The notes below the pieces were generated by a model. It had not been told where the DNA came from. It searched no databases and was given only the letters and a program-made list of their open reading frames with translations. A stretch of 52,686 nucleotides of DNA from the NCBI GenBank assembly GCA_016788905.1, contig JAEURZ010000004.1:100630-153315 (forward strand), written 5' to 3'. Each line of letters opens with the position of its first letter. Positions within the stretch are counted from its first letter, which is position 1. Origin of the DNA: Elusimicrobiota bacterium. GTDB taxonomy: Bacteria > Elusimicrobiota > Elusimicrobia > FEN-1173. Below, piece after piece: positions 653 through 52,686 of the stretch. A program made the position numbers and the translations under genes.

Positions 653-2013
653 GCAATGAACTGATTTCGGCGTTGGAACAAATTGAAAAAGACCAGGGGA
701 TTCCCAAGCAGGAAATCATTTCCATGGTGGAGCAGGCCCTCGTGTCCGCCTATCGAAAACACGCCGGCCAAATGGTCAATGTGGTGGCGACGATTGATAC
801 CGAGTCGGGGCAGATTTCCGCTCATGTGGTTAAGAGTATTGTGGAGACGGTGACCAATCCTTTGGTGGAGATCACCGCGGCGGAAGCCGCTCGGGTGAGC
901 AACGGGGTTGTGGAAGGGGGGGAGCTTCGGATTCCTGTGGACGCCAGGGATTTCGCCCGTATCGCGGCGCAGACCGCCAAACAAGTTTTGACTCAGAAAG
1001 TTCGCGAAACCCAGAGAGAAACCCTTTACACGGAATACAAACCAAAAGAAGGAACCATGATCAACGGAACCGTTCTCCGGTTCCTCAGCCGGAACATCGT
1101 GGTGGATTTGGGGCGGGGGTCCGAGGCGATTATGCCGGTGCGTGAACAAGTTCGTCGGGAACACTGGGCTGTGGCCGATCGGATTCGCGCCTTGATCCTC
1201 AAAGTCGAGCGGAGTCAGCGGGGACCAGAGATCATTCTTTCTCGCGCTCATCCTGATTTTGTCAAACGGCTTTTCGAACAAGAAGTACCGGAAATTTATG
1301 AGAAGACGGTGGAAGTGGTCACCGTGGTTCGCGAAGCGGGGTTCCGTTCCAAAGTGGTGGTGCGGAGCAACAACCCCAAGGTGGATCCCGTGGGGGCGTG
1401 TGTCGGAGTGAAGGGCTCCCGTGTTCGGCCGATCATCAATGAGTTGCAAGGGGAGCGGATTGACCTTGTCGCCCACACCTTGGACACTTCGACCTTTATC
1501 GGGAACGCCATGTCCCCGGTTAAGCCACTGATGGTTCAAATTTTGAGTCATGTGGAAAAACGGGCCGAAGTCTTGGTGGCGGACGATCAGTTGTCCTTGG
1601 CCATAGGAAAATCCGGTCAAAATGTGCGCTTGGCGAACAAATTGACCGGTTGGAGTTTGGACGTCCGATCGGAGGGCCAAAAACGAGAAGCCGCTCAGGC
1701 CAACGCTCAAGCCGCTGTGGACGGATTGTCCCAGTTGGAGGGAGTGGGTCCTAAAACGGCGGAAGCCCTGCAGAAAGGGGGGTGGGCGGATGTGGCCCGC
1801 TTGGCGAAGGCCAACCCAGACGATTTAACCGCGTTATCCGGGATTGGGGAGAAAAGCGCGGAGCGGATTATTGAGGCGGCCCAGGCGTTCCTGGCCAAGA
1901 AGTCCGAGGGAGTGGGGTCTCCTCCCGACGAGGACGTTCTTCCGGAGGCAGCGGACGCCCCTGTCCCTGTGAACGATGGAAATCCAGAACCCGAGGCGCG
2001 AGAAACCCTATGA
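649..2013 (+). CDS. nusA: Transcription termination/antitermination protein NusA
   Basis: Encodes 454 residues. NusA binds RNA polymerase and nascent RNA and controls pausing, termination and antitermination. In order: the N-terminal polymerase-binding domain (about 1-105), an S1 domain (about 108-180), two KH domains (about 190-330, with GVKGSRVRPI and LAIGKSGQNVRLA), then a helix-hairpin-helix pair (about 350-408, LEGVGPKTAEAL and LSGIGEKSAERI) and an acidic tail. The helix-hairpin-helix part stands where E. coli NusA has its acidic repeats. The start is GTG at 649, with GGAGAGG about 9 bases upstream, overlapping the rimP stop. The ATGA overlap with infB at the 3' end suggests coupled translation. 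Confidence 0.97.
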   Translation: MSNELISALEQIEKDQGIPKQEIISMVEQALVSAYRKHAGQMVNVVATIDTESGQISAHVVKSIVETVTNPLVEITAAEAARVSNGVVEGGELRIPVDARDFARIAAQTAKQVLTQKVRETQRETLYTEYKPKEGTMINGTVLRFLSRNIVVDLGRGSEAIMPVREQVRREHWAVADRIRALILKVERSQRGPEIILSRAHPDFVKRLFEQEVPEIYEKTVEVVTVVREAGFRSKVVVRSNNPKVDPVGACVGVKGSRVRPIINELQGERIDLVAHTLDTSTFIGNAMSPVKPLMVQILSHVEKRAEVLVADDQLSLAIGKSGQNVRLANKLTGWSLDVRSEGQKREAAQANAQAAVDGLSQLEGVGPKTAEALQKGGWADVARLAKANPDDLTALSGIGEKSAERIIEAAQAFLAKKSEGVGSPPDEDVLPEAADAPVPVNDGNPEPEARETL

Positions 2014-4145
2014 CCGAGACAAAGAAGAAGACAACCAAAACGCCCACAAAAACAGGTGTCAAGAAAGCCACGGACGAGAAGGTTCTTAAAGAGGGCGCCC
2101 CTGTCAAGAAAAAGGCCAAGACGGTTTCTTCCGTTCCAAAAACGAAACGCGTTTCGACGAAAGAAGGATCGACAGAAAAAAAACCTCGGTCGAAGAAAAA
2201 AACAGAAGGAGTCGTTGCCGTTTCCGCTCCGGATCTCACGGGGTCCCTTCCCGAAAAAGATTTGTCTCCTCTTCCTCTTGTTCCCCCGCCTCCCGTTCCG
2301 GTTAAAGTCGAAACGCCTGTGGCGCCGGTCCAGGCAAAGCCGCCCGTTGTTCCTGTGGTGCCCAAGCCAGTCTCCCCGGCGGTTCCGGTGGTGGCCCGGC
2401 AAAACATTTCGATTAACGAAGGGATTACGGTCAAAGAATTGGCCGAAAAAATGAGTGTGAAGATTCCGGACCTTTTAAAAAAGCTCATGAGCCTGGGGGT
2501 CATCGCAAATCTGAACCAACGGTTGGACACGGATACAGCGACTTTGGCGGCTGACGCCTTCCATTTTGATGTGGAAATTAAATCGTTGTTGGCGGATGAC
2601 GTTTTGGCTCCTGCGGACGATCCCGCCACGTTGGTTTCTCGACCGCCGGTTGTGACGGTGATGGGCCATGTGGATCACGGAAAAACATCTCTTTTGGACG
2701 CGATTCGATCGGCGCGCGTGGCCGAGAAAGAAGCCGGTGGGATTACTCAGCACATCGGGGCCTATCAGGTGGAAACGGGAAAAGGTGTCGTCACTTTCTT
2801 GGACACACCAGGTCACGAGGCGTTTACCGCTATGCGGGGACGGGGCGCTCAGGCCACGGACATTGTGGTGCTCGTGGTGGCCGCTGATGACGGTGTGATG
2901 CCTCAAACCGTCGAAGCGTTGGATCACGCCAAAGCGGCGGGGGTCCCCATTGTGGTGGCCATTAATAAATGTGATTTGCCCACGGCCAATTCCCAGAGGA
3001 TTAAGCAGGAGCTGGGTGGTTTGGGGCTTCAATCGGAAGATTGGGGTGGAAAAACGGTGATGGTTGAAGTTTCCGCTCGTCTGAAGACGAACATCGACAA
3101 ACTTCTCGAAATGATTCTCCTGGAAGCGGAATTACTGGAATTGAAGGCGAATCCCAATCGACCGGCTCAAGGGGTTGTGGTGGAAGCCAAATTGGATCCT
3201 CGTCGAGGACCTGTGGCCACGGTTTTGATTCAGAAAGGAACATTGCGGGTGGGGGATTCGTTTCTGTGCGGTGTGAAAGCGGGGAAAATCCGGGCGTTGC
3301 TAAACGATCGCGGTGAACGGGTGAAAGAAGCGGGGCCCGCGTTTCCCGTTGAGATTTTAGGTTTGGCGGGTACCCCCATGGCGGGAGAAAAGTTGATTGT
3401 TGTGGCTTCCGACCGTGAAGCACGCGAAATTGCGGAAAGGCGGCAGGTGATCGTGGATGCCGAAGCCCGGCGCGCGCGTCATCATCTTTCTTTAGAAGAA
3501 TTTCACAAGCAGGCAGAGTCCGGAAAGGTCAAATCCATGCCCATCATCTTGAAGGCCGATGTCCAAGGGTCTCTGGAAGCGGTCCGGGAATCTTTGTTGA
3601 AGCTCGGAAATGAAGAAATTGGGATTCGGGTGATTCACGCGGGGGTGGGGGGGATCAATAATTCCGATGTGGTACTCGCTGCCGCTTCCGATGCCATTAT
3701 CTTGGGGTTCAATGTTCGCCCGGATCCCTCTTCCGAAAACATGGCCCAAAGGGAAGGGATCGAAATTAAGACCTACCGCATTATTTATGAAATGGTGAAC
3801 GAGGTAAAAGCCGCCTTGGAAGGTCTGTTGGAGCCGGAAGAAAAAGAAACAACACAGGGCTGGGCCGAAGTTCGAAAAGTTTTCGTGGCACCGAAAATCG
3901 GGGCTGTGGCGGGGTGTATGGTGACGGACGGGAAGATCTCACGAACGGCCATGGCCCGATTGGTTCGCAATGGAGCCATTATTTTTGAGGGCGGTGTGGG
4001 AAGTTTAAGACGCTTTCGGGATGACGTAAAAGATGTGGAAAAGGGTTTCGAATGCGGTGTGTCCTTGGCCAATTATAAAGAAGTTAAAGTGGGGGATCGG
4101 TTGGAGTTCTATGTATTAGAAAAGGTTGCCCGGAAGCTCGCGTAA
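2010..4145 (+). CDS. infB: Translation initiation factor IF-2
   Basis: Encodes 711 residues. IF-2 is the GTPase that delivers initiator tRNA to the 30S subunit and promotes 50S joining. A Lys/Pro-rich, low-complexity N-terminal extension (about 1-130) is followed by an IF2_N domain (about 132-190). The G domain has G1 GHVDHGKT (219-226), a GGITQHIGAY switch I, G3 DTPGHEAF, G4 NKCD and a G5 VSA. Domains II, III and the C-terminal fMet-tRNA binding domain follow. The start overlaps the nusA stop as ATGA. The length is short relative to E. coli (890) because of a shorter N-terminal extension. Confidence 0.97.
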   Translation: MTETKKKTTKTPTKTGVKKATDEKVLKEGAPVKKKAKTVSSVPKTKRVSTKEGSTEKKPRSKKKTEGVVAVSAPDLTGSLPEKDLSPLPLVPPPPVPVKVETPVAPVQAKPPVVPVVPKPVSPAVPVVARQNISINEGITVKELAEKMSVKIPDLLKKLMSLGVIANLNQRLDTDTATLAADAFHFDVEIKSLLADDVLAPADDPATLVSRPPVVTVMGHVDHGKTSLLDAIRSARVAEKEAGGITQHIGAYQVETGKGVVTFLDTPGHEAFTAMRGRGAQATDIVVLVVAADDGVMPQTVEALDHAKAAGVPIVVAINKCDLPTANSQRIKQELGGLGLQSEDWGGKTVMVEVSARLKTNIDKLLEMILLEAELLELKANPNRPAQGVVVEAKLDPRRGPVATVLIQKGTLRVGDSFLCGVKAGKIRALLNDRGERVKEAGPAFPVEILGLAGTPMAGEKLIVVASDREAREIAERRQVIVDAEARRARHHLSLEEFHKQAESGKVKSMPIILKADVQGSLEAVRESLLKLGNEEIGIRVIHAGVGGINNSDVVLAAASDAIILGFNVRPDPSSENMAQREGIEIKTYRIIYEMVNEVKAALEGLLEPEEKETTQGWAEVRKVFVAPKIGAVAGCMVTDGKISRTAMARLVRNGAIIFEGGVGSLRRFRDDVKDVEKGFECGVSLANYKEVKVGDRLEFYVLEKVARKLA

Positions 4146-41229: not shown

Positions 41230-42050
41230 ACCGCCGTTCCCTCTTGTTGTGGGTGAGCAGGGGATTGCTCCTCGTTTTTTTCGCGACGACGGGTCAATCC
41301 CTTGCAGCCGCGGATATCACCAAATTAACGGACCAAGGGGTTCGGTTGTTTGAAAAAGGGGAATTTGATAAGGCGCTTCGAATTTTCCTGAAGGTAAAAA
41401 AAGAAGAGCCCACCCATCCTTTAGCCAAGGAGTATATTCATCGTTGCACTGCAAAAATTGTGGAAGCTGAAAAAGATGTCCGGTTGAGAAGAGCCATTCG
41501 AAAGGGGGAATCTTCCTCGGCAACAATTCTCCCGAAAGATCCCGCTCCCGCGTGGAGCGTTTCGCCTTCCCGTCAACGGCAGAGCAAATCGAGCCGATCA
41601 AAAAAGAGCAAACAGGCCGCAAAGACGGTCCTCCCCTATTCGAACTATGAACAACGACGGACAGGAGCAAGTTTTATTGATAAACGGAACCAATTAGCCG
41701 ACGGGTATAAAAATAAAATATTGGAAGGCCCCGCCATCGAGGTTGTTCGGAAGGGGAAAAATGTTGAAGTTGTGGCTTTTATGAACAGACTGTTTTTGCC
41801 ATTTTCGGATTCTCTGGCACCGGACGCGGTTCCGTCGATCGTTGACGTCGCTAATGAATTGCAGTCCCAACCCGGGAAGTCAACGGTGTTGAGGGCTGTG
41901 GATTCCTTGACTCCCGCCGTTCGTCATCAAATGTTAGACTTACCTGCACGGCGAGTTTCCATTCTTTTCAGTCTCCTGATGCAAGCTTCCACGGGGGATG
42001 AAACCAATGAAGGGAAGAAGGTGTTTAGCGCCGCTGATCTGGACGACTAG
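41226..42050 (+). CDS. Exported TPR protein with OmpA-like end, function unknown
   Basis: Encodes 274 residues. A signal peptide (about 1-28, ending SLAAA) precedes two TPR-like helices (ITKLTDQGVRLFEKGEFDKAL). A basic Ser/Lys-rich linker (about 95-140) follows. The C-terminal part (about 175-255) has FLPFSDSLAPDAVPSIVDVA and LDLPARRVSILFSLL, which recall the start and the last helix of OmpA-like domains in a degenerate form. No enzyme motif is seen. It overlaps the previous gene as ATGA and precedes the barrel gene by 73 bases. Confidence 0.6.
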   Translation: MNRRSLLLWVSRGLLLVFFATTGQSLAAADITKLTDQGVRLFEKGEFDKALRIFLKVKKEEPTHPLAKEYIHRCTAKIVEAEKDVRLRRAIRKGESSSATILPKDPAPAWSVSPSRQRQSKSSRSKKSKQAAKTVLPYSNYEQRRTGASFIDKRNQLADGYKNKILEGPAIEVVRKGKNVEVVAFMNRLFLPFSDSLAPDAVPSIVDVANELQSQPGKSTVLRAVDSLTPAVRHQMLDLPARRVSILFSLLMQASTGDETNEGKKVFSAADLDD

Positions 42051-42123
42051 ACGGGGATTCGTTTTAGAGTCGTCCTTCAGGGAGTCAATGCATCATCCTA
42101 TAAATCGATCAAAAGGTGAAAAC

Positions 42124-42915
42124 ATGAAATCCATTTCTGTTCGTATTTTACTTTCCGTTGGATTGATCGGGTCTTCTGTTTGTGGGTGGGCACGCGTGAA
42201 TGTGCTGGATCCTTGGGCACCCGGATTCGATGCTGTCCTGTCGGATAAAAAATGGGATGTTTCGCCGCACCTGCGAATTGGAAGTGGTGGGGCTGGCGGG
42301 ACGGATTTGACTGAAATTGGTGCCACGGTTACGATGCCTTTAAAAAATGAATGGGAAATGGGGGCAGTTTGGGGATTTCAAACTTTAGATTCGTCCGGGG
42401 TGCGGGACGATTCCGGTGTGTCGGATATTGCCTTTGCGGTAAAACATCGATTGCCTGGTAATTTATTCCCCGATCCCCTCAAGGCTGTGGGAGAGTTTGG
42501 TGTGTCACTCCCAACGGGAGATTCGGATCATGGGCTCGGGGCTGGTGGGATTGGCCTTTTGGGAAACGCGGGTTTAACTCTCCCACTTCGGGCGGTTCGC
42601 GGGTATGCGCAGATTGGTCTAAAGCTTTATTCCGAGGGGCGGGACACGCGGTGGGGAAATGCATTGAGCTACTCGGCTGGGGCCATGTACCCCCTTTCAG
42701 AAGAAGTGATGTTGTCGGCGGATTTTCGTGTGATTAATCATGGTCGTGATAAAATTGACGGTGTGAAACTTCCCAACACCGCGCAGGAGGCCTACCTGAC
42801 TTCAGGGGGGGTATGGAAACCCGTCAATGGAACAATGGAGGCTCAAGGGCTTCTTCTCCTCGGATTGACGGGAGACGCCTACGATTTTGGCCTACAGCTT
42901 GGCTTGAAATTTTAA
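42124..42915 (+). CDS. Predicted outer-membrane beta-barrel protein
   Basis: Encodes 263 residues. A signal peptide (about 1-22, ending VCGWA) is followed by alternating hydrophobic strands with Gly-rich turns. Phrases such as GEFGVSLPTGDSDHGLG, GYAQIGLKLYSEG and the C-terminal DAYDFGLQLGLKF, ending in phenylalanine, are typical of barrel proteins of the transporter/MetA-pathway-like type. The frame opens at 41998, but the ATG at 42124 gives the signal peptide and has AAAGGTGA upstream. As the last gene of the cluster it is the natural outer-membrane partner of the TonB-like protein (inference). Confidence 0.7.
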   Translation: MKSISVRILLSVGLIGSSVCGWARVNVLDPWAPGFDAVLSDKKWDVSPHLRIGSGGAGGTDLTEIGATVTMPLKNEWEMGAVWGFQTLDSSGVRDDSGVSDIAFAVKHRLPGNLFPDPLKAVGEFGVSLPTGDSDHGLGAGGIGLLGNAGLTLPLRAVRGYAQIGLKLYSEGRDTRWGNALSYSAGAMYPLSEEVMLSADFRVINHGRDKIDGVKLPNTAQEAYLTSGGVWKPVNGTMEAQGLLLLGLTGDAYDFGLQLGLKF

Positions 42916-43094
42916 TCCTTTCCATTCTTTTTTTCTGCACGAACATGTTATCTGACGTATTCCTGAAATAAATGGGCAATGCGTTGGGTCGAAGCTATTC
43001 CCTTATTCCGACTCTAAAAACATTAAAAACATACGTCTTTGCTTCATCTTGGATTAATTTCGGCGATGCGACAGCGGCAACTTTAGTTGATTAG

Positions 43095-43703
43095 TTGAGA
43101 ACGTCCCCTTTTCCTCGCAATGTGACGCCGGGGGTGGGGCAATCGACCTCCGTGGTGGTGGGACTCATTCAGCCCTGGTATTTCGTGATTTGGACGAAAG
43201 ATGAGGTGGACAACTGGTCGGTCATATCGGCCACGGTGTCGGTGGTGCCGTTCGTGACGGTGCGCTCGGTGAGCATTACGAGCGGTGGGGCTCAGGATTG
43301 GGGAGAGGTGATGATGGGGTCAACGGTGGCGGGGTCCACGGGGACGGTGCTCTTAAACGATGGGAATGTGGCCAACACCTACAGTTTCACAGCATCGACC
43401 CAAACGGTGGGGAGCCCCTGGAGCGTCAAGAGTTCCCCGCCGGCGGGGCCTGACCAATTGGTGATTTACGGGGCGTTCCACGGGACAGCGCCGGTGTCGG
43501 GGGATTATGGGGTGGAAGATGTGATGTATGGGACAGGGCAATCCAGCTCGGGGACGGTCTTTACGGTGGACGGGTCTGCCACGGGGGCCTCTGTGCCCGA
43601 TGGGGAGAGTCGAACCTTATGGATTCGGATGGATTTCCCCACAACCACCACGACCGTGGATCAACAAACCATAAAAGTCCAGGTGACGGCACAAGCGCCT
43701 TGA
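43095..43703 (+). pseudogene. 5'-truncated remnant of a large FN3/NHL-type surface protein
   Basis: The open frame (202 codons from TTG) begins in the middle of an FN3-like domain. Its bases from about 43122 (GTGACGCCGGGG) equal the FN3 module of the giant gene at 47692, and NVTPGVGQSTSVVV and WYFVIWTKDEVDNWSVIS parallel SVTPGSMQTKVITG and YYFVLWSEDSANNWSGIS there. No signal peptide or plausible start exists, and stop codons precede it. The following 140 residues (ITSGGAQDWGEV to KVQVTAQAP) form a beta-rich C-terminal domain with VPDGESRTLWIRMDFPTTT. It therefore looks like the 3' end of a lost paralogue. The 179-base gap before it holds nothing I recognise. Confidence 0.62.
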
Positions 43704-43791
43704 TCAAAAACCCACCTAATTGTCGCTAAATTAACGATAAGTCCGCCATGGGTTGGGCTTAAAAACCTTCGTATTTTAATGAAATAAACGC

Positions 43792-43820
43792 TTGAAATTC
43801 ATTTGATCTCGATACATACT
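43792..43820 (+). promoter_or_regulatory. Promoter of the giant repeat protein, leaderless type
   Basis: TTGAAA (43792-43797) and CATACT (43815-43820) are separated by 17 bases. The ATG at 43827 follows after 6 bases (CAAGTT), with no ribosome binding site. Confidence 0.5.
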
Positions 43821-43826
43821 CAAGTT

Positions 43827-46403
43827 ATGAAATTCCGATGGTTATTTGGTGTGGGGAGTTGGGTGTTGGGGGCACTCTTTCTAGGGGGGGCTACTTCCTG
43901 GGCGGCGAGTATTACCAGAACCGCTACCGTTGCCAGCAACACCTCCGGGTGGACGAATTGGACCACCACTCGGCTTGGGTCGTCTGATAATTCCCTGGCC
44001 GATACGGGGACCAGCGCTTCCGCCACAGGGGTTTTGTATGGGTTTGATTTTTCCTCCATCCCCGTTGGTTCAACGATTGTTGGGATTGAAGTCATGATTG
44101 AAGCAAAGGAAACCAATGCGGCGGTAGACGGATACACCCAAACGTCTGTTTCCTGGAATAGCGGAACCAATTATTCCTCCACACAACGTTCACCGGGTTC
44201 CGGCGAATTTACCTTATCCGACGCCAATTACACCGTGGGTGGGCCAACGGATTCCTGGGGTCGCTCGTGGAGCCTGGCGGAGATCACCAGCACCTTCCGC
44301 GTTAAAATAGTCGCTACCGACGCTTCGTCAACCGTTGGCCGTCATGTGACGGTGGATTATGTGACTGTGACGATCTATTACGATGAGCCTGTGGTGGATA
44401 CGGTAACCCTTTCAGAGGCCGTGGGTCAGGCGGGATGGATGGGGCGGGGAGAGACCCAGCGGATTTTGGGAACGGCTCAGGTGGTTTTTAACTCCGGGGC
44501 TGGGGTGACCATTTCGTCCGTGGCGGTGCAGGCGAGTGGGTATACGGCAGATGGAAACCTGACGAATGTGGAGGTGTGGGTCAGCTCCAGCGGCTATATT
44601 GATGCCAACGCCATTCGACTGGAAGAGACGGCGAAGGCTTTTTCCAGCAACGTGGCGTTGTTTATGCAAGATGTGTTTATCAGTTCAACTCCCCTGTATT
44701 TTATTGCTCGGAGCGACGTCAGCGGATCCGCCACGGAAGGAACGTTCGACATCGCACTTCAGGTTTACAGCACAGCAAATACGGCCAATAACCCCATCGC
44801 GTTCACGAACGCCACAGACGTGGTGGCTCCGCCCAGCGGGAGCCCGTCAAGCTTGAATGCTACGGCCTCCAGCAACCTTCTTCGGGTTACCTTATCTTGG
44901 GGGGCGGCAACGGGCAGCGATAGCTATACGATCTTTCGAGCCACCCATTCGGGGGTGACCACCACGGACTATATAGTGGGAATGACCAGCGGAACCAGTC
45001 ACATAGACGATTATATCCCTCCCGCCCAGCAGATGTATTACAAGGTTCTTGCAACCAATCGGGCCGGATCCACCCTCAGCAGTCCCGCCAACGCGACTTC
45101 CGTTAATACCTCAGGACTAACAACGTCCAACATCTATGTGCGGGGTGGCCGACCAAGCAATCTCGGAAATGGAAATATGGCTTATACCGAAACGTTAAGC
45201 TACCCAAACACGACGAGTATCGATTTTTCTGGGAACGTCTATATTGCCGACAGAAATCGCACGGCCATCCGATTAATTCCAAAAAAAGGGGGGACGTATT
45301 TCGGGCAATCGATGATGGCGAATTGTTCCTATACGATTGCGGGGAACGGTACGAATGGCTATCTGGCGGATAATGTGGCCGCCACGTCAACACGAATTAA
45401 CCAGCCCTATGGAGTGAGCGTGGACGTGGGGGGGAATGTCTATATTGCTGACACGAATAACAATCGCATTCGGTTTATCCCTAAAAATGGGGGGACATAT
45501 TTCGGGCAGTCGATGACGGCAAATTACATCTATACGATCGCGGGCACCGGAACGGCGGGGTATGTGGCGGACAACGTGCCAGCAACGTCAACGCAGATTA
45601 ACGCCCCGAACGGCGTCAATGTGGACGCGGCGGGGAATGTCTATATTGGTGACACGAATAACCATCGCATTCGGTTTATCCCTAAAAGTGGGGGATCCTA
45701 TTTCGGGCAGACGATGACGGCGAACTACATCTATACGATCGCGGGAACCGGGACAGGGGGCTATGTGGAAGATAACGTGGTCGCCACGTCAACGCCGATC
45801 AACAAACCCAATGGTGTGAGCGTGGATGCCGGAGGAAATGTCTACATTGCGGATTATCAAAACCATCGCATCCGATTTATCCCCAAGGGAGGGGGGGCCT
45901 ATTTCGGGCAGACGATGATGGCGAACTCTATTTACACGATCGCAGGAACCGGCCAAGCTGGATATTGGGACAATAGATCTGCCACTACCGCGTGGATATA
46001 TTGTCCCTCTGGTGTGAGCGTGGACTCCGGTGGGAATGTTTACATAGCGGACAATCTGAATCATCGTATCCGGTTCGTTCCGAAGACCGGGGGAACGTAT
46101 TTCGGACAGTCGATGACGGCGAACTACATCTACACGATTGCGGGAAATGGCTCAACAGGTTATTTGTCGGACAATGTGGCACCTACTTCTACGCGGCTAG
46201 ATAATCCCGCTGGGGTCTCCGTGGACGCTGGTGGGAATGTTTATATTGCCGACACCGATAACTATCGGATTCGGTTTATCCCCAAGAGTGGGGGAGTGTA
46301 TTTCGGGCAGATGATGACGGCGAACTACATCTATACGATTACTGGGATTATCCCATATATATATATATGGCAGATAATGCGGTCGCTACGGCCACGACGA
46401 TGA
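43827..46403 (+). CDS. Giant secreted NHL/FN3 repeat protein, N-terminal part up to the frameshift
   Basis: Encodes 858 residues before a premature stop. A signal peptide (about 1-27, ending SWAA) is followed by a jelly-roll-like domain (about 30-185), then a first 'EAVGQAGWMG' module of about 140 residues of unknown family, an FN3-like domain (PPSGSPSSLNATASS to SPANATSV) and the first NHL array. NHL units read GNVYIADTNNNRIRFIPKNG and continue with GGTYFGQSMTANYIYTIAG, 67 residues each; blades form beta-propellers. After six units the frame breaks at an (AT)7 tract (46355-46368) and ends at 46401-46403. The repeat reading continues in another frame from there. TTG 43803 is an earlier possible start, but ATG 43827 fits the promoter and the signal peptide. 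Confidence 0.85.
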   Translation: MKFRWLFGVGSWVLGALFLGGATSWAASITRTATVASNTSGWTNWTTTRLGSSDNSLADTGTSASATGVLYGFDFSSIPVGSTIVGIEVMIEAKETNAAVDGYTQTSVSWNSGTNYSSTQRSPGSGEFTLSDANYTVGGPTDSWGRSWSLAEITSTFRVKIVATDASSTVGRHVTVDYVTVTIYYDEPVVDTVTLSEAVGQAGWMGRGETQRILGTAQVVFNSGAGVTISSVAVQASGYTADGNLTNVEVWVSSSGYIDANAIRLEETAKAFSSNVALFMQDVFISSTPLYFIARSDVSGSATEGTFDIALQVYSTANTANNPIAFTNATDVVAPPSGSPSSLNATASSNLLRVTLSWGAATGSDSYTIFRATHSGVTTTDYIVGMTSGTSHIDDYIPPAQQMYYKVLATNRAGSTLSSPANATSVNTSGLTTSNIYVRGGRPSNLGNGNMAYTETLSYPNTTSIDFSGNVYIADRNRTAIRLIPKKGGTYFGQSMMANCSYTIAGNGTNGYLADNVAATSTRINQPYGVSVDVGGNVYIADTNNNRIRFIPKNGGTYFGQSMTANYIYTIAGTGTAGYVADNVPATSTQINAPNGVNVDAAGNVYIGDTNNHRIRFIPKSGGSYFGQTMTANYIYTIAGTGTGGYVEDNVVATSTPINKPNGVSVDAGGNVYIADYQNHRIRFIPKGGGAYFGQTMMANSIYTIAGTGQAGYWDNRSATTAWIYCPSGVSVDSGGNVYIADNLNHRIRFVPKTGGTYFGQSMTANYIYTIAGNGSTGYLSDNVAPTSTRLDNPAGVSVDAGGNVYIADTDNYRIRFIPKSGGVYFGQMMTANYIYTITGIIPYIYIWQIMRSLRPRR

Positions 46404-47490
46404 GTAGTGGAGGATTGCATGTAGATGACGATGGTAACATCTATTTTGCGGATCAGATTAATCATCGCATTCGCTTCATTCCCAACGTGGGGGGAATCTA
46501 TTTCGGCCAGTCAATGACGGCGAACTGTATATACACAATTGCGGGAACTGGGCTATCAAGTAACGGGGGAGACAATGTGTTAGCCACGTCTTGTGGGATC
46601 AGCAGTCCCCCGGATGTCAGCGTGGACGCTGGTGGGAATATATATATAGCGGATGAGGGCAATAACGTCATCCGGTTTGTTCCTAAAATTTCAGGTACGT
46701 ATTTCGGTCGGTCAATGACTGCAAACTACAGCTATAGGATTGCGGGGAACAACGTGGGTGGATATTTAGCGGACAACGTAAATGCGACGTCGACCAGAAT
46801 TAACCAGCCCTACGGGGTGAGCGTGGATTCGGGGGGGAATCTCTATATTGCTGACAAGAATAATCATCGCGTCCGATTCGTCCCCCTAAGTGGGGGAACG
46901 TATTTCGGACAGTCGATGACGGCGAACTACATCTATACGATTGTGGGAAACGGAACGGGGGGGTATTTGGCGGACAATGTGGCGGCCACCAGCACGCAGA
47001 TTAATTCCCCCTATGATGTAAGAGTTGATGTTGATGGCAACGTTTATGTCGTGGACAGCGTAAACCAACGCATACGATTCATGCCCAAGACAAGTGGGAC
47101 TTATTATGGACAATCCATGACGGCCACTTACCTCTATACCATTGCGGGGAACGGAACGGGGGGGTATTCGGCGGACAATGTGGCGGCTACGTCCACCCGC
47201 ATTAACTATCCCGAAGGGATCAGTGTGGACGTGGGCGGGAACGTCTACATTGCTGATAAATATAACAATCGCATTCGATTTGTTCCCAAGAGCGAGGGAA
47301 CATATTTCGGGCAGTCCATGATCGCTACCTACATTTACACCATTGGGGGATCAGGAAATCAAATTAATGACGGGGGAAATGCACTGGCCACGAGCAAAAG
47401 TATCTTCTGGCCGGTTGATGTATTTGCAGGACCGGGGAGCATGGTGTATTTGAGCGATGCAAACTATAAAATCCGAATGATCGCTGGGGA
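45210..47490 (+). repeat. NHL repeat array 1 (201-bp units)
   Basis: The codon for the tyrosine of the TYFGQ motif recurs at 45297, 45498, 45699, 45900, 46098, 46299, 46499, 46700, 46901, 47102 and 47303: a spacing of 201 bases, with one 198 and one 200 (the latter is the (AT)7 interval). Twelve VYIAD-type blade strands are present, the last one without the TYFGQ part. Twelve blades fit two six-bladed propellers. Confidence 0.9.
46355..46368 (+). repeat. (AT)7 dinucleotide tract at the frameshift point
   Basis: Seven AT units lie inside the coding sequence. Upstream repeats read in one frame and downstream repeats in another, needing a loss of 2 or a gain of 1 base. Removing one AT gives TITGIIPYIYMADNAVAT, which has the same nine residues between YTI and ADN as the intact units (for example YTIAGTGTAGYVADN). 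Confidence 0.85.
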
Positions 47491-50400
47491 CGATACGATT
47501 GCCCCGTCCACTTCAACACTTACAGCAACGGCGGGGGGGGGGCGTGTGACTTTAGATTGGAACTCGGCCGGGAACGACGGGATGATCGGGACCTTGACGG
47601 GAAATTACAGGATCCAATTCGCCACCTATACCGCCACCTGGAGCACAAGCACCACGCCCACCAACGCCACCACGGTGACCATTGCCACCACCAGCGTGAC
47701 GCCGGGGTCGATGCAAACAAAGGTGATCACGGGGTTGACCAGTGGCATAACCTATTATTTTGTTTTGTGGTCGGAAGACTCGGCTAACAACTGGTCTGGT
47801 ATTTCGAATAGCACATCGGCGGTCCCTTCCGTTCCGAATCCGACCGTTACCTTAACGGAAGCCGTGGGCCAGGCGGGTTGGATGGGGCAGGGGGAGACGC
47901 AGAGGATTTTGGGGACGGCGGAAGTGGTGTCGGATTCGGCGTCCGGGGTGACGATTTCGTCTGTGGCGGTGCAGGCGAGCGGGTATACAGCGGATGGAAA
48001 CCTCACGAATGTGGAAGTGTGGGTCAGTTCCAGCGGCTATATCGATGCGAACGCGGTTCGGCTAGACGGGACGGCTAAGGCGTTTTCGAGCAACGCGGCG
48101 GTATTTGATCAGGATGTGGTTGTGAGCACCACCCCCCTCTATTTCATTGCCCGCAGTGATGTTAGCGGATCAGCCACAGAAGGGACGTTTGATATTGCCT
48201 TGCAGGTTTATACGACGGTTACGACATTGAATAACCCGATCGCGTTCAGTAACGCGACGGACGTGGTGGCGCCCCCCAGCGGGACGCCTTCGGGACTGAC
48301 CGCAACGCCGTCTAGCAACCTCCTGAAAGTGAGCCTAAACTGGAGCGGGGCGACGGGGGCGGATAGTTATTCCATCTTTCACGCCACCCATTCCGGAGTG
48401 ACGACATCAGACTATTTCCTGGGGACAACCACGGCCACCAGTCTAAGCGATGACTTAATGATTCCCAATCAGTTGAGGAATTACATTGTGGTGGGCAACA
48501 ATCGTGCGGGAAGCTCGAGTCCCAGTGCGGTGGCCTCGGCGACCACTGTGGATGTCCCTGCTCTGACCCGAAACTACATCTACTTGCGTGCTGGGTTGCC
48601 CGCCTATGTCCCCGGTGATGGAATTGTCGCGACGAACGGAAACCTGAATTCACCCGTTTCCTGTTTTGTGGACCACGAAGGAAATCTCTATATTGCTGAC
48701 GAAAGCAATAAGCGGATCCGGTTTGTTCCGAAAAAATCCGGGACCTTTTTTGGCCAATCCATGGTGGCAAACTCAATTTATTCGATTGCTGGGACTGGAA
48801 CCTCGGCGTATAACGGGGATGGCGCAATGGCTACATCAAGAAATATTTATTATCCAGAAGGGGTTGCTGTGGATGCGGGGGGCAACGTTTACATCGCTGA
48901 TAAAGGAAATAACCGTATTCGATTTATACCGAAAACGGGGGGAACCTATTTTGGGCAGTCGATGACGGCAAATTATATTTATACGATCGCGGGGAATGGA
49001 TCTAGCAGTTATGGGGCGGACAATGTGGCGGCGACCAGCACGGGCCTGAAACTCCCTTCGGGAGTCAGCCTCGATGGGGCTGGAAATGTTTACATTGCGG
49101 ATACGGACAACTACAGGATCCGGTTTGTTCCCCAAGTGACGGGAACCTATTTTGGGCAGTCGATGACGGCAAGCTATATCTACACGATTGCCGGCAACGG
49201 AACCTCCGGTTTTCTGGCAGACGATGTGGCCGCGACCAGCACGAGGATCAGCAGCGTGACGGGTATTGCCGTTGATGCTGGCGGAAACGTATACATGACG
49301 GACGGGTTTACTTATCGAATTCGCTTCATGCCCAAGGCCGGGGGGACCTATTTTGGCCAAACCATGACGGCCAATTACCTATACACCATTGCCGGTAACG
49401 GCACAAGCGGTTACCTGGCGGATAATGTGGCCGCCACCAGCACTCGAATCAATATATCGAAAGGTCTCTCTCTTGATCAAAGCGGAAATATTTATATTGC
49501 GGATACCTACAGCTATCGAATCCGTTTTATCCCCAGGGCTGGGGGGACGTACTTTGGGCAAAGCATGACGGCAAATTACATCTATACGATTGCGGGGAAC
49601 GGAACGGGCGGGTACCTAGCGGACGATGTGGCCGCCACCAGTACGCGTATTGAATTAGCTTATGGAGTCACTGTCGACCGAAGTGGAAACGTCTATATTT
49701 CGGATACCATCAATAACCGGGTTCGATTTGTTCCAAAAACAAGTGGAACCTATTTTGGAAAAAATGTGACGGGTTCATTTATCTATACCATTGCTGGGGC
49801 AGGGAATACGCCTTATGGGGGAGATAATCGCATCGCTAACAGCAAAAACGTCAGCGACCGCGTTCTCATCACTGGCGACTCCAGTGGGAATCTATATGTT
49901 GCGGATTACAATGACTCTCGGGTCCGTTTTGTTCCGAAAACGGGGGGGACATATTTCGGTCAAACGATGACGGCGAACCACATTTATACGATTGCGGGGA
50001 ACGGAACGGCCGGGTATCTCGCGGATGATGTGGCCGCCACCAGCACGCGCCTATTCGATCCTCAGGGAGTTGCGGTGGACACGAGCGGGAATCTCTATAT
50101 TGCGGACACCACCAGCAACCGGGTTCGTTTCGTGCCCACAACAGGAGGGACGTATTTTGGTCAAACGATGACGGCCAATTATATCTATACGATTGCGGGG
50201 AACGGGACGCCTGGTTATCTTGCGGACGATGTGGCGGCTACGAGCACACGCCTAGATTCCCCGACCGGTGTCACGATTGATTCGACGGGGAACGTTTACA
50301 TCGCGGATTGGAGCAACCATCGCATTCGCTTTGTGCCCAAAACGGGAGGGACGTATTTTGGCCAGACGATGACAGCGAACTATATCTATACCATCGCGGG

Positions 50401-52686
50401 GAACGGAACAGCGGGTTATCTGGCGGATAATGTGAGCGCGACCAGCACGCGAATCAGTTATCCTAAAAGTGTGCCCGTGGATAGTAATGGGAATATTTAT
50501 ATATCCGACTCGGCGAACCATCGTATTCGCTTCGTACCCAAAACGGGAGGGACGTATTTTGGCCAGGCGATGACGGCCAATTACATTTACACCATAGCGG
50601 GGAATGGAACGTCTGGCTATTTAGCCGACGATGTGAGTGCGACCAGCACAAGAATTAATTCGCCGCTAAACGTCAATGTGGATGGGGCTGGCAACGTGTA
50701 TATCGCGGATACGAACAACAACCGGATTCGTTTCGTCGCGAAAGCAGGGGGTACCAATTTCGGTCAATCCATGACAGCCAATTACATTTACACAATTGGA
50801 GGAACGGGGGGGACAACATACAATGGGGAAAACGCTCTCGCCACGAACCAGGCCATTTCTGGCCCTGAAGGGCTATATGTTGATGCCGACAAACTGGCTT
50901 ATGTGGCAGATGCCAATCAAGTCGTCCGCATGATTGCGGGGGGGGACCCAGATGTTGTTTCGCCTTCCACGTCGACCCTGGCCGCGGTGACGGGATCTGT
51001 GGATGGCACTGTGGACCTGTCGTGGGCGTCCGCGGGGGACGATGGCATGATAGGGAATTTAACGGGGAATTACCGGATTCAATATGCAACCTATACGGCG
51101 AGCTGGAGCACTTCAACGACTCCCACCAACGCCACCACGGTAACCATTGCAACGACCAGTGTGACACCGGGATCGTCTCGAAGTAGAACCATGACAGGCT
51201 TACCCGGCGGAATGACCCATTATTTCGTTCTTTGGACGCAGGATGAATCCAGCAATTGGTCCGGTATTTCAAATACGACCTCCGCTGTCTCTGGAGCATC
51301 GACCGTCACCTTGGCGGAGGCCGTGGGCCAGGCGGGGTGGATGGGGCGGGGGGAGACGCAACGGATCTTAGGGACGGCGCAGGTGGTGTCGGATTCTGCG
51401 GCGGGGGTGACGATTTCGTCGGTGGCGGTGCAGGCGAGCGGGTATACGGCGGACGGGAACTTAACGAACGTTGAGGTGTGGGTCAGTTCCAGCGGATACA
51501 TTGATGCTACTGCTATTCGGTTGCAAAACACCTCGAAACCCTTTTCAAGTAATACAGCGGTATTTACACAGAATGTGGTGGTCAGCACGACACCGCTTTA
51601 CTTCATTGCGCGGAGCGACGTGGGTGGATCGGCCACGGAAGGGACATTTGAACTGGCCTTACAGGTGTATACGACAGCTTCGAGTGTGAATAACCCGATC
51701 GCGTTCAGTAACGCAACCGACGTGGTGGCGCCCCCCAGCGGAACGCCGTCGGGTTTAACGGCGACGGCGGCCGGTAACCTCTTGCAGGTGAATTTAAGCT
51801 GGAGCGGAGCGACGGGGGCGGACAGCTATACCATTTATCGCGCGACCCATTCGGGAGTGACGACCACAGACTTTATTCTGGGCATGACCAACAGCACCAG
51901 TTTCGCGGACGACACGATCCCTCCCAACCAGTTGATGTATTACAAAGTCGTCGGCCAGAACCGGGCGGGGTCCACCAGCCTGAGCAATGTCGCGTCGGAT
52001 ACCTCGGTGGATGTGCCGGCACTCACGACGTCCAACATCTACTTGAGGGCGGGGGTCCCCTCGGGGTATGGAAACGGAGGGGTGGCCTATTGGGATTCAC
52101 TTTCCCCCTTGGGAACAATGATTGATCGGGCTGGAAATCTATACGCGACGGATACCGTTTCGCGAATTAAATTTACCCCAAAAGTGGATGGGACCTATTT
52201 TGGTCAATCCATGACGGCCCATCGGATCTATACAATAGCGGGAACGGGGACGACTTCCTACAATGGGGATGGTGTGTTGGCAACCACGGCTCACCTCAAT
52301 ATTCCTCGAACCCTGGCGATCGATGCGGGGGGAAACGTTTATATCGCCGACCAAAGTAATCATCGGATCCGATTTGTTCCCAAAACCGGGGGTACGTATT
52401 TCGGTCAAACCATGACCGCCAACTATATCTATACCATCGCGGGCACGGGCACGGGATCTTACGGCGGTGACGGTGGTGCGGCCACATCAACACCCTTAAA
52501 TAATCCCTACGGGGTAAGCGTTGACCCCTGGGGGAACGTGGCGATTGCGGATTATTCGAACCATCGCATTCGGTTTATTGCCAAGACAAGCGGGACGTAT
52601 TTCGGCCAGTCCATGACGGCCAATAACATATACACAATTGCGGGGGATGGAACCGGGGCCTACAATGGAGATAATGTTGTGGCCAC
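46400..52686 (+). CDS. Giant NHL/FN3 repeat protein, continuation, incomplete at window end
   Basis: The frame is open without a stop from the (AT)7 tract to the window end (about 2,095 codons). The ATG at 46400 overlaps the stop of the upstream part as ATGA, so a second start is formally possible, but the product would lack a signal peptide. Order: the rest of NHL array 1 (to about 47490), an FN3-like domain (about 47500-47840), the second EAVGQAGWMG module and its FN3-like domain (47846-48590), NHL array 2 (about 48660-50946), FN3 (about 50950-51300), the third module plus FN3 (51305-52050), and the first units of array 3. It is best read as the continuation of the 43827 gene. Function unknown; a surface adhesin or scaffold is plausible. 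No catalytic domain was seen. Confidence 0.85.
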   Translation, partial: MSSGGLHVDDDGNIYFADQINHRIRFIPNVGGIYFGQSMTANCIYTIAGTGLSSNGGDNVLATSCGISSPPDVSVDAGGNIYIADEGNNVIRFVPKISGTYFGRSMTANYSYRIAGNNVGGYLADNVNATSTRINQPYGVSVDSGGNLYIADKNNHRVRFVPLSGGTYFGQSMTANYIYTIVGNGTGGYLADNVAATSTQINSPYDVRVDVDGNVYVVDSVNQRIRFMPKTSGTYYGQSMTATYLYTIAGNGTGGYSADNVAATSTRINYPEGISVDVGGNVYIADKYNNRIRFVPKSEGTYFGQSMIATYIYTIGGSGNQINDGGNALATSKSIFWPVDVFAGPGSMVYLSDANYKIRMIAGDDTIAPSTSTLTATAGGGRVTLDWNSAGNDGMIGTLTGNYRIQFATYTATWSTSTTPTNATTVTIATTSVTPGSMQTKVITGLTSGITYYFVLWSEDSANNWSGISNSTSAVPSVPNPTVTLTEAVGQAGWMGQGETQRILGTAEVVSDSASGVTISSVAVQASGYTADGNLTNVEVWVSSSGYIDANAVRLDGTAKAFSSNAAVFDQDVVVSTTPLYFIARSDVSGSATEGTFDIALQVYTTVTTLNNPIAFSNATDVVAPPSGTPSGLTATPSSNLLKVSLNWSGATGADSYSIFHATHSGVTTSDYFLGTTTATSLSDDLMIPNQLRNYIVVGNNRAGSSSPSAVASATTVDVPALTRNYIYLRAGLPAYVPGDGIVATNGNLNSPVSCFVDHEGNLYIADESNKRIRFVPKKSGTFFGQSMVANSIYSIAGTGTSAYNGDGAMATSRNIYYPEGVAVDAGGNVYIADKGNNRIRFIPKTGGTYFGQSMTANYIYTIAGNGSSSYGADNVAATSTGLKLPSGVSLDGAGNVYIADTDNYRIRFVPQVTGTYFGQSMTASYIYTIAGNGTSGFLADDVAATSTRISSVTGIAVDAGGNVYMTDGFTYRIRFMPKAGGTYFGQTMTANYLYTIAGNGTSGYLADNVAATSTRINISKGLSLDQSGNIYIADTYSYRIRFIPRAGGTYFGQSMTANYIYTIAGNGTGGYLADDVAATSTRIELAYGVTVDRSGNVYISDTINNRVRFVPKTSGTYFGKNVTGSFIYTIAGAGNTPYGGDNRIANSKNVSDRVLITGDSSGNLYVADYNDSRVRFVPKTGGTYFGQTMTANHIYTIAGNGTAGYLADDVAATSTRLFDPQGVAVDTSGNLYIADTTSNRVRFVPTTGGTYFGQTMTANYIYTIAGNGTPGYLADDVAATSTRLDSPTGVTIDSTGNVYIADWSNHRIRFVPKTGGTYFGQTMTANYIYTIAGNGTAGYLADNVSATSTRISYPKSVPVDSNGNIYISDSANHRIRFVPKTGGTYFGQAMTANYIYTIAGNGTSGYLADDVSATSTRINSPLNVNVDGAGNVYIADTNNNRIRFVAKAGGTNFGQSMTANYIYTIGGTGGTTYNGENALATNQAISGPEGLYVDADKLAYVADANQVVRMIAGGDPDVVSPSTSTLAAVTGSVDGTVDLSWASAGDDGMIGNLTGNYRIQYATYTASWSTSTTPTNATTVTIATTSVTPGSSRSRTMTGLPGGMTHYFVLWTQDESSNWSGISNTTSAVSGASTVTLAEAVGQAGWMGRGETQRILGTAQVVSDSAAGVTISSVAVQASGYTADGNLTNVEVWVSSSGYIDATAIRLQNTSKPFSSNTAVFTQNVVVSTTPLYFIARSDVGGSATEGTFELALQVYTTASSVNNPIAFSNATDVVAPPSGTPSGLTATAAGNLLQVNLSWSGATGADSYTIYRATHSGVTTTDFILGMTNSTSFADDTIPPNQLMYYKVVGQNRAGSTSLSNVASDTSVDVPALTTSNIYLRAGVPSGYGNGGVAYWDSLSPLGTMIDRAGNLYATDTVSRIKFTPKVDGTYFGQSMTAHRIYTIAGTGTTSYNGDGVLATTAHLNIPRTLAIDAGGNVYIADQSNHRIRFVPKTGGTYFGQTMTANYIYTIAGTGTGSYGGDGGAATSTPLNNPYGVSVDPWGNVAIADYSNHRIRFIAKTSGTYFGQSMTANNIYTIAGDGTGAYNGDNVVA
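48660..50946 (+). repeat. NHL repeat array 2 (201-bp units)
   Basis: The position equivalent to TYFGQ tyrosine occurs at 48746, 48947, 49148, 49349, 49550, 49751, 49952, 50153, 50354, 50555 and 50756, always 201 bases apart. As in array 1 there are eleven full units and a twelfth VYIAD-type strand (KLAYVADAN). All units are in one frame. Confidence 0.92.
52110..52686 (+). repeat. NHL repeat array 3, cut by the window end
   Basis: Three units are visible with TYFGQ tyrosines at 52196, 52397 and 52598, again 201 bases apart. By comparison with arrays 1 and 2, about nine further units are expected beyond the window. Confidence 0.85.

Follow-up and report, generated by a model that had tools for sequence, protein, structure and literature searches.

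A probable remnant of a second giant NHL/FN3-type gene beside a transposase-element end, and the C-terminal domain that it preserves in Elusimicrobia

A gene fragment upstream of a giant NHL/FN3 gene

The stretch of DNA analysed here, hereafter the window, comprises 52,686 bp of an Elusimicrobiota genome (assembly GCA_016788905.1, contig JAEURZ010000004.1, referred to as C4; G000:C4:100630-153315), and its last base is also the last base of the contig. The right-hand part of the window is occupied by a giant NHL/FN3 gene on the plus strand. Its first part (43827-46403) opens with an ATG at 43827 and encodes a signal-peptide-like N-terminus, as judged by eye; the gene then continues in another frame (46367-52684, plus strand), which is open to the contig end and leaves the window there. 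The frame is interrupted at an (AT)7 tract (46355-46368), the longest dinucleotide tract of the window. Two homopolymer runs, G10 at 47533 and G8 at 50938, also fall within the giant ORF, and the three tracts are either candidates for slippage (phase variation) or sequencing errors. The propeller repeats of the giant protein match the Pfam NHL model with 258 bits and the ScyD/ScyE model with 86.7 bits (cut-off 80), and the score obtained with the ScyF model is 148 bits, against 350.

Upstream of this gene and on the same strand lies a much shorter frame of 202 amino acids, open from a TTG codon at 43095 to a stop at 43701-43703. A sequence-only reading had described this frame as starting within an FN3 domain homologous to that of the giant gene, and as ending with a complete C-terminal domain and a stop codon; both descriptions hold. 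Residues 8-76 match one FN3 region of the giant ORF (41%, E 2.4e-6) and residues 8-69 match a second one (42%, E 2.2e-4), the partial FN3 domain having its approximate limits at 43119-43244 when aligned with these regions (41-42%) and with the copy on contig C22 described below. It is followed by a domain hereafter called domain X (43296-43691, plus strand), which covers positions 2-132 of a 132-position model (E 7e-44) grown from the fragment (43109-43703) plus its relatives. The beginning of the frame fares less well: it is indeed open from 43095, but positions 43095-43108, including the TTG, belong to a mobile-element end (43078-43108), and similarity to the C22 copy starts at 43118 in BLAST comparisons, from where it runs to 10 nt beyond the stop. 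Positions 43109-43117 pair with C22 only when a global alignment is forced, at the cost of a 2-base gap, and the alignments place the resumption of the gene 0-9 bases beyond the element end at 43108. The feature at 43109-43703 (plus strand) is, on paralogue alignment, a giant-type gene truncated to its 3' end, i.e., a partial FN3 domain, then domain X and a stop, in which homology to a longer gene begins mid-domain and is preceded by unrelated DNA.

No signal peptide was seen by eye in the frame of the fragment. The only promoter-like match within 42900-43900 (0.8 expected) lies downstream of the fragment, at 43792-43820; no terminator-like site was seen in the same interval (1.4 expected), and no Rfam family reached its gathering score within 42800-44000. 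The DNA that separates the element end from the upstream ORF (41998-42915), at 42916-43077, is unique according to an own-genome DNA search: besides self, the element end and C22:317-335, only weak matches (E 2 to 7) were returned for 42880-43140.

Searched as a protein against its own genome, the frame 43095-43703 matches seven places at E <= 10, itself included. The best of the paralogous ends is found at the start of contig C22, where C22:315-899 matches residues 8-202 (89% at the amino acid level, E 5.4e-110); at the DNA level, 530 of the 596 bases of C22:317-912 are identical to the fragment from 43118 onwards, ungapped. C22 starts with a 299-aa open frame made up of the end of an NHL region, a full FN3 domain, a C-terminal domain X and a stop, and the first 153 residues of this frame align with the giant ORF at an NHL-FN3 junction (BLOSUM62 score 425). 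Judging from these alignments, this order is probably what the C-terminus of the giant protein looks like. In addition, C24:1-87 matches the last 29 residues of the fragment at 97%, from the first base of its contig, and more distant matches are present on C36 (37%, E 1.3e-13, within a 1383-aa frame) and on C2 (30%, E 2.1e-11, in a 214-aa frame). The earlier proposal that the fragment previews the C-terminus of the giant protein is thus strengthened by C22 and C24, which carry the same C-terminus, and comparison with these genomic paralogues reveals ends that are alike, not unrelated. However, the end of C4 shares no exact overlap of at least 15 bases with the starts of C22, C24, C35, C36 or C39, so that C22 represents the same kind of end, not necessarily the giant gene's own.

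The first 77 bp of C24 are found exactly in C22, which may correspond to the word length of the assembler. The two ends (L009, 813-902, on C22 and L011, 1-90, on C24) agree at every base over 77 bp before diverging in their last codons and 3' flank, and the point of divergence is either a recombination boundary or merely the assembler's word overlap. The 3' flank of the fragment (43706-43740, plus strand) resembles that of the C24 copy with a score of 25, reached by none of 500 shuffles, although by a margin of one point only (shuffle maximum 24); the score against the C22 flank is 14, which 253 of 500 shuffles reached. Additional NHL-type protein genes lie at the ends of C36 (L010) and C39 (L057).

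A mobile-element end at the truncation point

The 31 bp that immediately precede the fragment (43078-43108, plus strand) are the right-end remnant of a tyrosine-transposase element flanked by terminal inverted repeats (TIRs), with its outer end towards the truncated gene (96.8% over 31 bp). The 24-bp TIR at 43085-43108 is an exact match to the right end of an intact 1071-bp element, C22:45483-46553, which displays perfect 24-bp inverted ends and a 338-aa transposase frame (Pfam Y1_Tnp, E 8.9e-13), and is thus a Y1 (HUH) transposase gene located between inverted ends. The same transposase matches the NCBIfam family REP_Tyr_transpos (NF047646.1) with an E of 9.7e-22; as the score of 77.4 bits is below the curated 80-bit cut-off, it is referred to here as REP-associated-type.

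The element end recurs at eight further places in the genome, according to an own-genome DNA search. Its core, GTTGAGAACGTCC, has exactly nine occurrences in 2.51 Mb, and 17 when one mismatch is allowed, versus 1 for the reversed control. Because there are only nine exact copies in 2.51 Mb, chance is an unlikely reason for the presence of this core next to the breakpoint; the probability of finding it within about 10 bases is about 7e-5 by our own arithmetic, done post hoc. Some of these ends are solo, i.e., without a full element, at C39:600 and C17:33387, with shorter ones at C4:3107 and C24:36863, and the NHL-type gene of C39 has a solo end upstream of its start. Two ORFs, on C35 (L055, 126-149) and C37 (L056, 7813-7835), run into the same element end and terminate within a few codons (...DVLN), which indicates that the element inserts within coding sequences or at their ends. 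When a 22-base end was searched for in 60 genomes with up to two mismatches, it was found in two of them, the present one included, with 7 places here and 11 in a relative, G028. In the latter, a genome of the same class, two ends in opposite orientation lie 34 bp apart (G028:C58:18961-19016), in a REPIN- or MITE-pair-like arrangement.

To the left of 43078, neither the element body nor a 5' remnant of the gene was recognised by an own-genome DNA search and a shuffle test; comparison of 42916-43084 with the element body gave a score of 18, matched by 217 of 300 shuffles.

Possible histories of the fragment

Over the 194 codons that can be compared, the fragment differs from C22 with a dS of 0.307 and a dN of 0.062 (dN/dS 0.20), with neither a stop nor a gap, and 41 of the 64 differences fall at third positions. 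With such a ratio and an intact frame, most of the divergence took place under constraint, so that either the truncation is a late event or the frame remains in use; in terms of relative age, these sequences suggest either a truncation that is recent relative to the duplication or a frame that is still constrained. It had also been suggested that the fragment could serve as a recombination donor. This receives no support: the longest identical run shared with C22 is 44 nt, a length that random placement of the differences attains in 29.5% of cases (p 0.295), and it gives no sign of gene conversion between the two.

The history that we favour, and regard as probable, is that the fragment is what remains, at the 3' end, of a second giant gene for a secreted protein of the NHL/FN3 type, cut by insertion of a transposase element and by deletion. 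A second giant gene, whose full-length state we infer, would have stood head-to-tail upstream of the surviving one. A TIR-flanked element carrying a REP-associated-type tyrosine transposase would then have inserted into its FN3-coding region, and a later deletion would have taken the element body, sparing only 31 bp at the right end, along with the 5' side of the gene. Insertion before deletion is the order that we propose, and the fragment, deprived of start and signal peptide, would now be inert. The earlier claim that a paralogue was lost by deletion is supported as far as the loss of the 5' part is concerned, with a transposon end adjoining it, and the full-length gene at this place belongs to the reconstruction. 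Several observations speak against this history: the solo ends elsewhere in the genome, the occurrence of the TIR family in only two of the 60 genomes, the transposase score below the REP_Tyr_transpos cut-off, and the failure to recognise a 5' remnant or a second NHL body. Head-to-tail genes with a common domain X C-terminus do exist in a relative: contig C138 of G001, a genome of the same family, carries a 5'-open 241-aa frame (2-727) and then a 966-aa frame (849-3749), both of which end in domain X. By eye, both proteins bear FN3 domains, not NHL repeats.

Among the alternatives, the one that survives best, while still unlikely, is a partial duplication in which the 3' end alone was copied to this place, for example beside a transposon end, and no full second gene ever existed. 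This would fit with the lack of any 5' trace of a second giant gene in the window, and with the results of a genome-wide NHL search, which revealed no second NHL body in the assembly. This search gave 30 NHL matches, 22 on C4, 6 on C36 and 2 on C8, those on C36 and C8 being at E 2.5e-7 or weaker; the body of a second giant gene is thus missing from the assembly, was lost, or never existed. However, a dN/dS of 0.20 with no stops or gaps at a dS of 0.31 is unexpected for a copy that was dead on arrival, and in a neutral simulation 0.15 change per site left no stop in only 6.4% of runs (37.6% for 0.05). A late partial copy of another paralogue, itself lost or unassembled, would nonetheless be compatible with these numbers.

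The position of the element end bears on another scenario, in which an unrelated deletion came first and a solo end inserted later, at or near the breakpoint. The solo ends found elsewhere in the genome make such a late insertion at an older breakpoint possible. On the other hand, only 0-9 bases separate the end from the gene, towards which its outer side points, and two independent events are less economical than one history linking them; we therefore hold this sequence of events to be unlikely as well, and place it after the partial duplication.

It is improbable that the frame is a still working short gene, producing a domain X protein from an internal start. Short domain X proteins are encountered in relatives and on C2, and the clean frame and the low pairwise dN/dS are in line with such a function, but half an FN3 domain stands ahead of domain X, the frame begins in transposon sequence, no signal peptide is apparent by eye and the sole promoter-like match is on the wrong side, downstream of the fragment. 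Finally, an assembly artefact, in which the upstream contig was erroneously connected to a giant-gene end, is very improbable: the assembly does consist of 78 contigs with breaks inside giant-type genes, and C24 does begin with 77 bp exact in C22, but the sequence shared at the junction would be too short if the word length was 77, as we presume, with a best element-end match of 39 query bases at 90% and a longest identical run to C22 of 44 nt. If the favoured history of insertion followed by deletion is correct, it provides one concrete route, via a small tyrosine-transposase element, by which giant genes may be lost.

Domain X, its neighbourhood and comparison with known systems

Even though the remnant is ordinary, the fragment retains the C-terminal domain found in giant proteins of Elusimicrobia, a region that contig breaks tend to hide, and it is the domain X module that carries the interest. 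The domain X model matches many frames among the genomes of relatives. In 45 distinct frames with a complete 3' end, the domain is followed by at most 16 residues in 44 cases and by 340 in the last one; the longest frame, of 5915 aa in G018, also has the domain at its end (L018). The fragment itself has matches in 28 of 60 genomes, its own included, some of them to FN3 and not to domain X, and a scan of genome contigs returned a single locus (L120), on the 4482-bp contig JANQER010000104.1 of an Elusimicrobia MAG. Short proteins with domain X also exist, in relatives and on C2 here; their stop-to-stop frames span about 200-290 aa, and a signal-peptide-like N-terminus, as seen by eye, directly precedes the domain. 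In profile searches, the best match to PDB had an E of 0.49; with NCBIfam it was choice_anch_D (E 0.0013), in 2 of 22 members, and with Pfam the best E was 0.0045, in 1 of 22 members, the window's own member matching no Pfam or NCBIfam family. An AlphaFold2 model built from a three-row alignment had a mean pLDDT of 40, too poor for fold comparison. As far as these profile searches and a limited literature search on Elusimicrobia go, domain X appears to be undescribed.

A second family, with two Ig-like domains, accompanies domain X genes on the same strand in 11 of the 17 stretches examined in relatives, and is absent from the remaining six; in the present genome, it is found beside the short domain X gene of C2. 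A large domain X gene, a two-Ig-like partner and a small domain X gene occur together at several loci (L104-L109, L111-L113, L116, L119, L012), and the modules of relatives are often followed by genes for proteins with a CHU_C/FlgD-like C-terminus. Over 60 genomes, matches to the fragment and to the partner are both present in 27 and both absent in 29, with one genome having only the former and three only the latter (Fisher p 2.4e-12, uncorrected for kinship). In eight partners that were scanned, the Ig-type Pfam matches are weak and mostly below cut-off, with no match in three; FixG_C passes its cut-off in one of the eight (31.7 versus 25.6 bits), and WxLIP_PGBD is seen in three of the eight, at E 0.09-0.31 only, which is below cut-off. 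Among 22 complete entries, some of which are one gene counted twice, hydropathy over 19-residue segments of the last 70 residues peaks at 1.32 and thus reveals no C-terminal membrane helix.

The intact giant protein would start with a signal peptide and display its NHL propellers and FN3 domains outward, with domain X holding its C-terminus to the envelope. From the gene neighbourhood, and by analogy with WxL proteins, it is conceivable, with the balance tilting slightly against it, that domain X holds the giant protein at the cell surface together with the two-Ig-like partner. Neither the window nor the C22 stretch contains a partner gene, which weakens this docking model for the giant protein, whose locus lacks a partner in the stretches examined.

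Compared with known systems, the fragment shares with ordinary pseudogene remnants of element-truncated genes the loss of the 5' part, a frame that begins in the element end and an intact 3' part, and is unusual only by the length of the parent gene and the abbreviated, 31-bp element remnant. As for the element, tyrosine transposase genes flanked by terminal inverted repeats are a known kind according to the excerpts available of PMC3733652, and the C22 element resembles the TIRtrons and REP/RAYT systems treated there, with a Y1-type transposase between TIRs and scattered solo ends. It differs from the REP/RAYT systems of these excerpts in scoring just below the NCBIfam RAYT cut-off and in having no GTAG tag; its end carries CGTC, and repeats with CGTC are described in the same excerpts with an 8-9 bp stem (PMC3733652). 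The giant protein shares its propeller repeats with the NHL-repeat proteins ScyD/ScyE and ScyF, but is far larger, with several NHL blocks separated by FN3 and another domain.

The closest parallel for the domain X module is the WxL system of Firmicutes. WxL clusters, as portrayed in parts of PMC10599100 and PMC9772566, encode a large protein with a C-terminal domain, small proteins and a two-Ig-like partner, and the surroundings of domain X recall this layout, in that large proteins end in the domain, small ones consist of it alone, and the two-Ig-like family is encoded alongside in 11 of the 17 stretches of relatives. Domain X is nonetheless set apart from WxL: it belongs to another phylum, and defining features fail, as it has no Pfam WxL match and at least two WxL motifs are found in the domain tails of only 3 of 45 frames (at least one in 22 of 45). 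Similarly, the WxL partner combines DUF916-DUF3324 with a C-terminal membrane helix, a combination that the partners scanned here do not show. By analogy, the domain X module may thus work like a WxL system, without being one. We tentatively propose that it could be an undescribed Elusimicrobia surface-display module, in which a C-terminal domain X would dock giant secreted proteins onto the envelope with the help of a two-Ig-like partner and small X-only proteins, and which would serve giant genes subject to duplication, to disruption by small tyrosine-transposase elements and possibly to switching through slippage tracts. If domain X is such a surface-docking device, it would offer a sequence handle on how Elusimicrobia display very large proteins, and a counterpart, in an unrelated phylum, of the Firmicutes WxL system.
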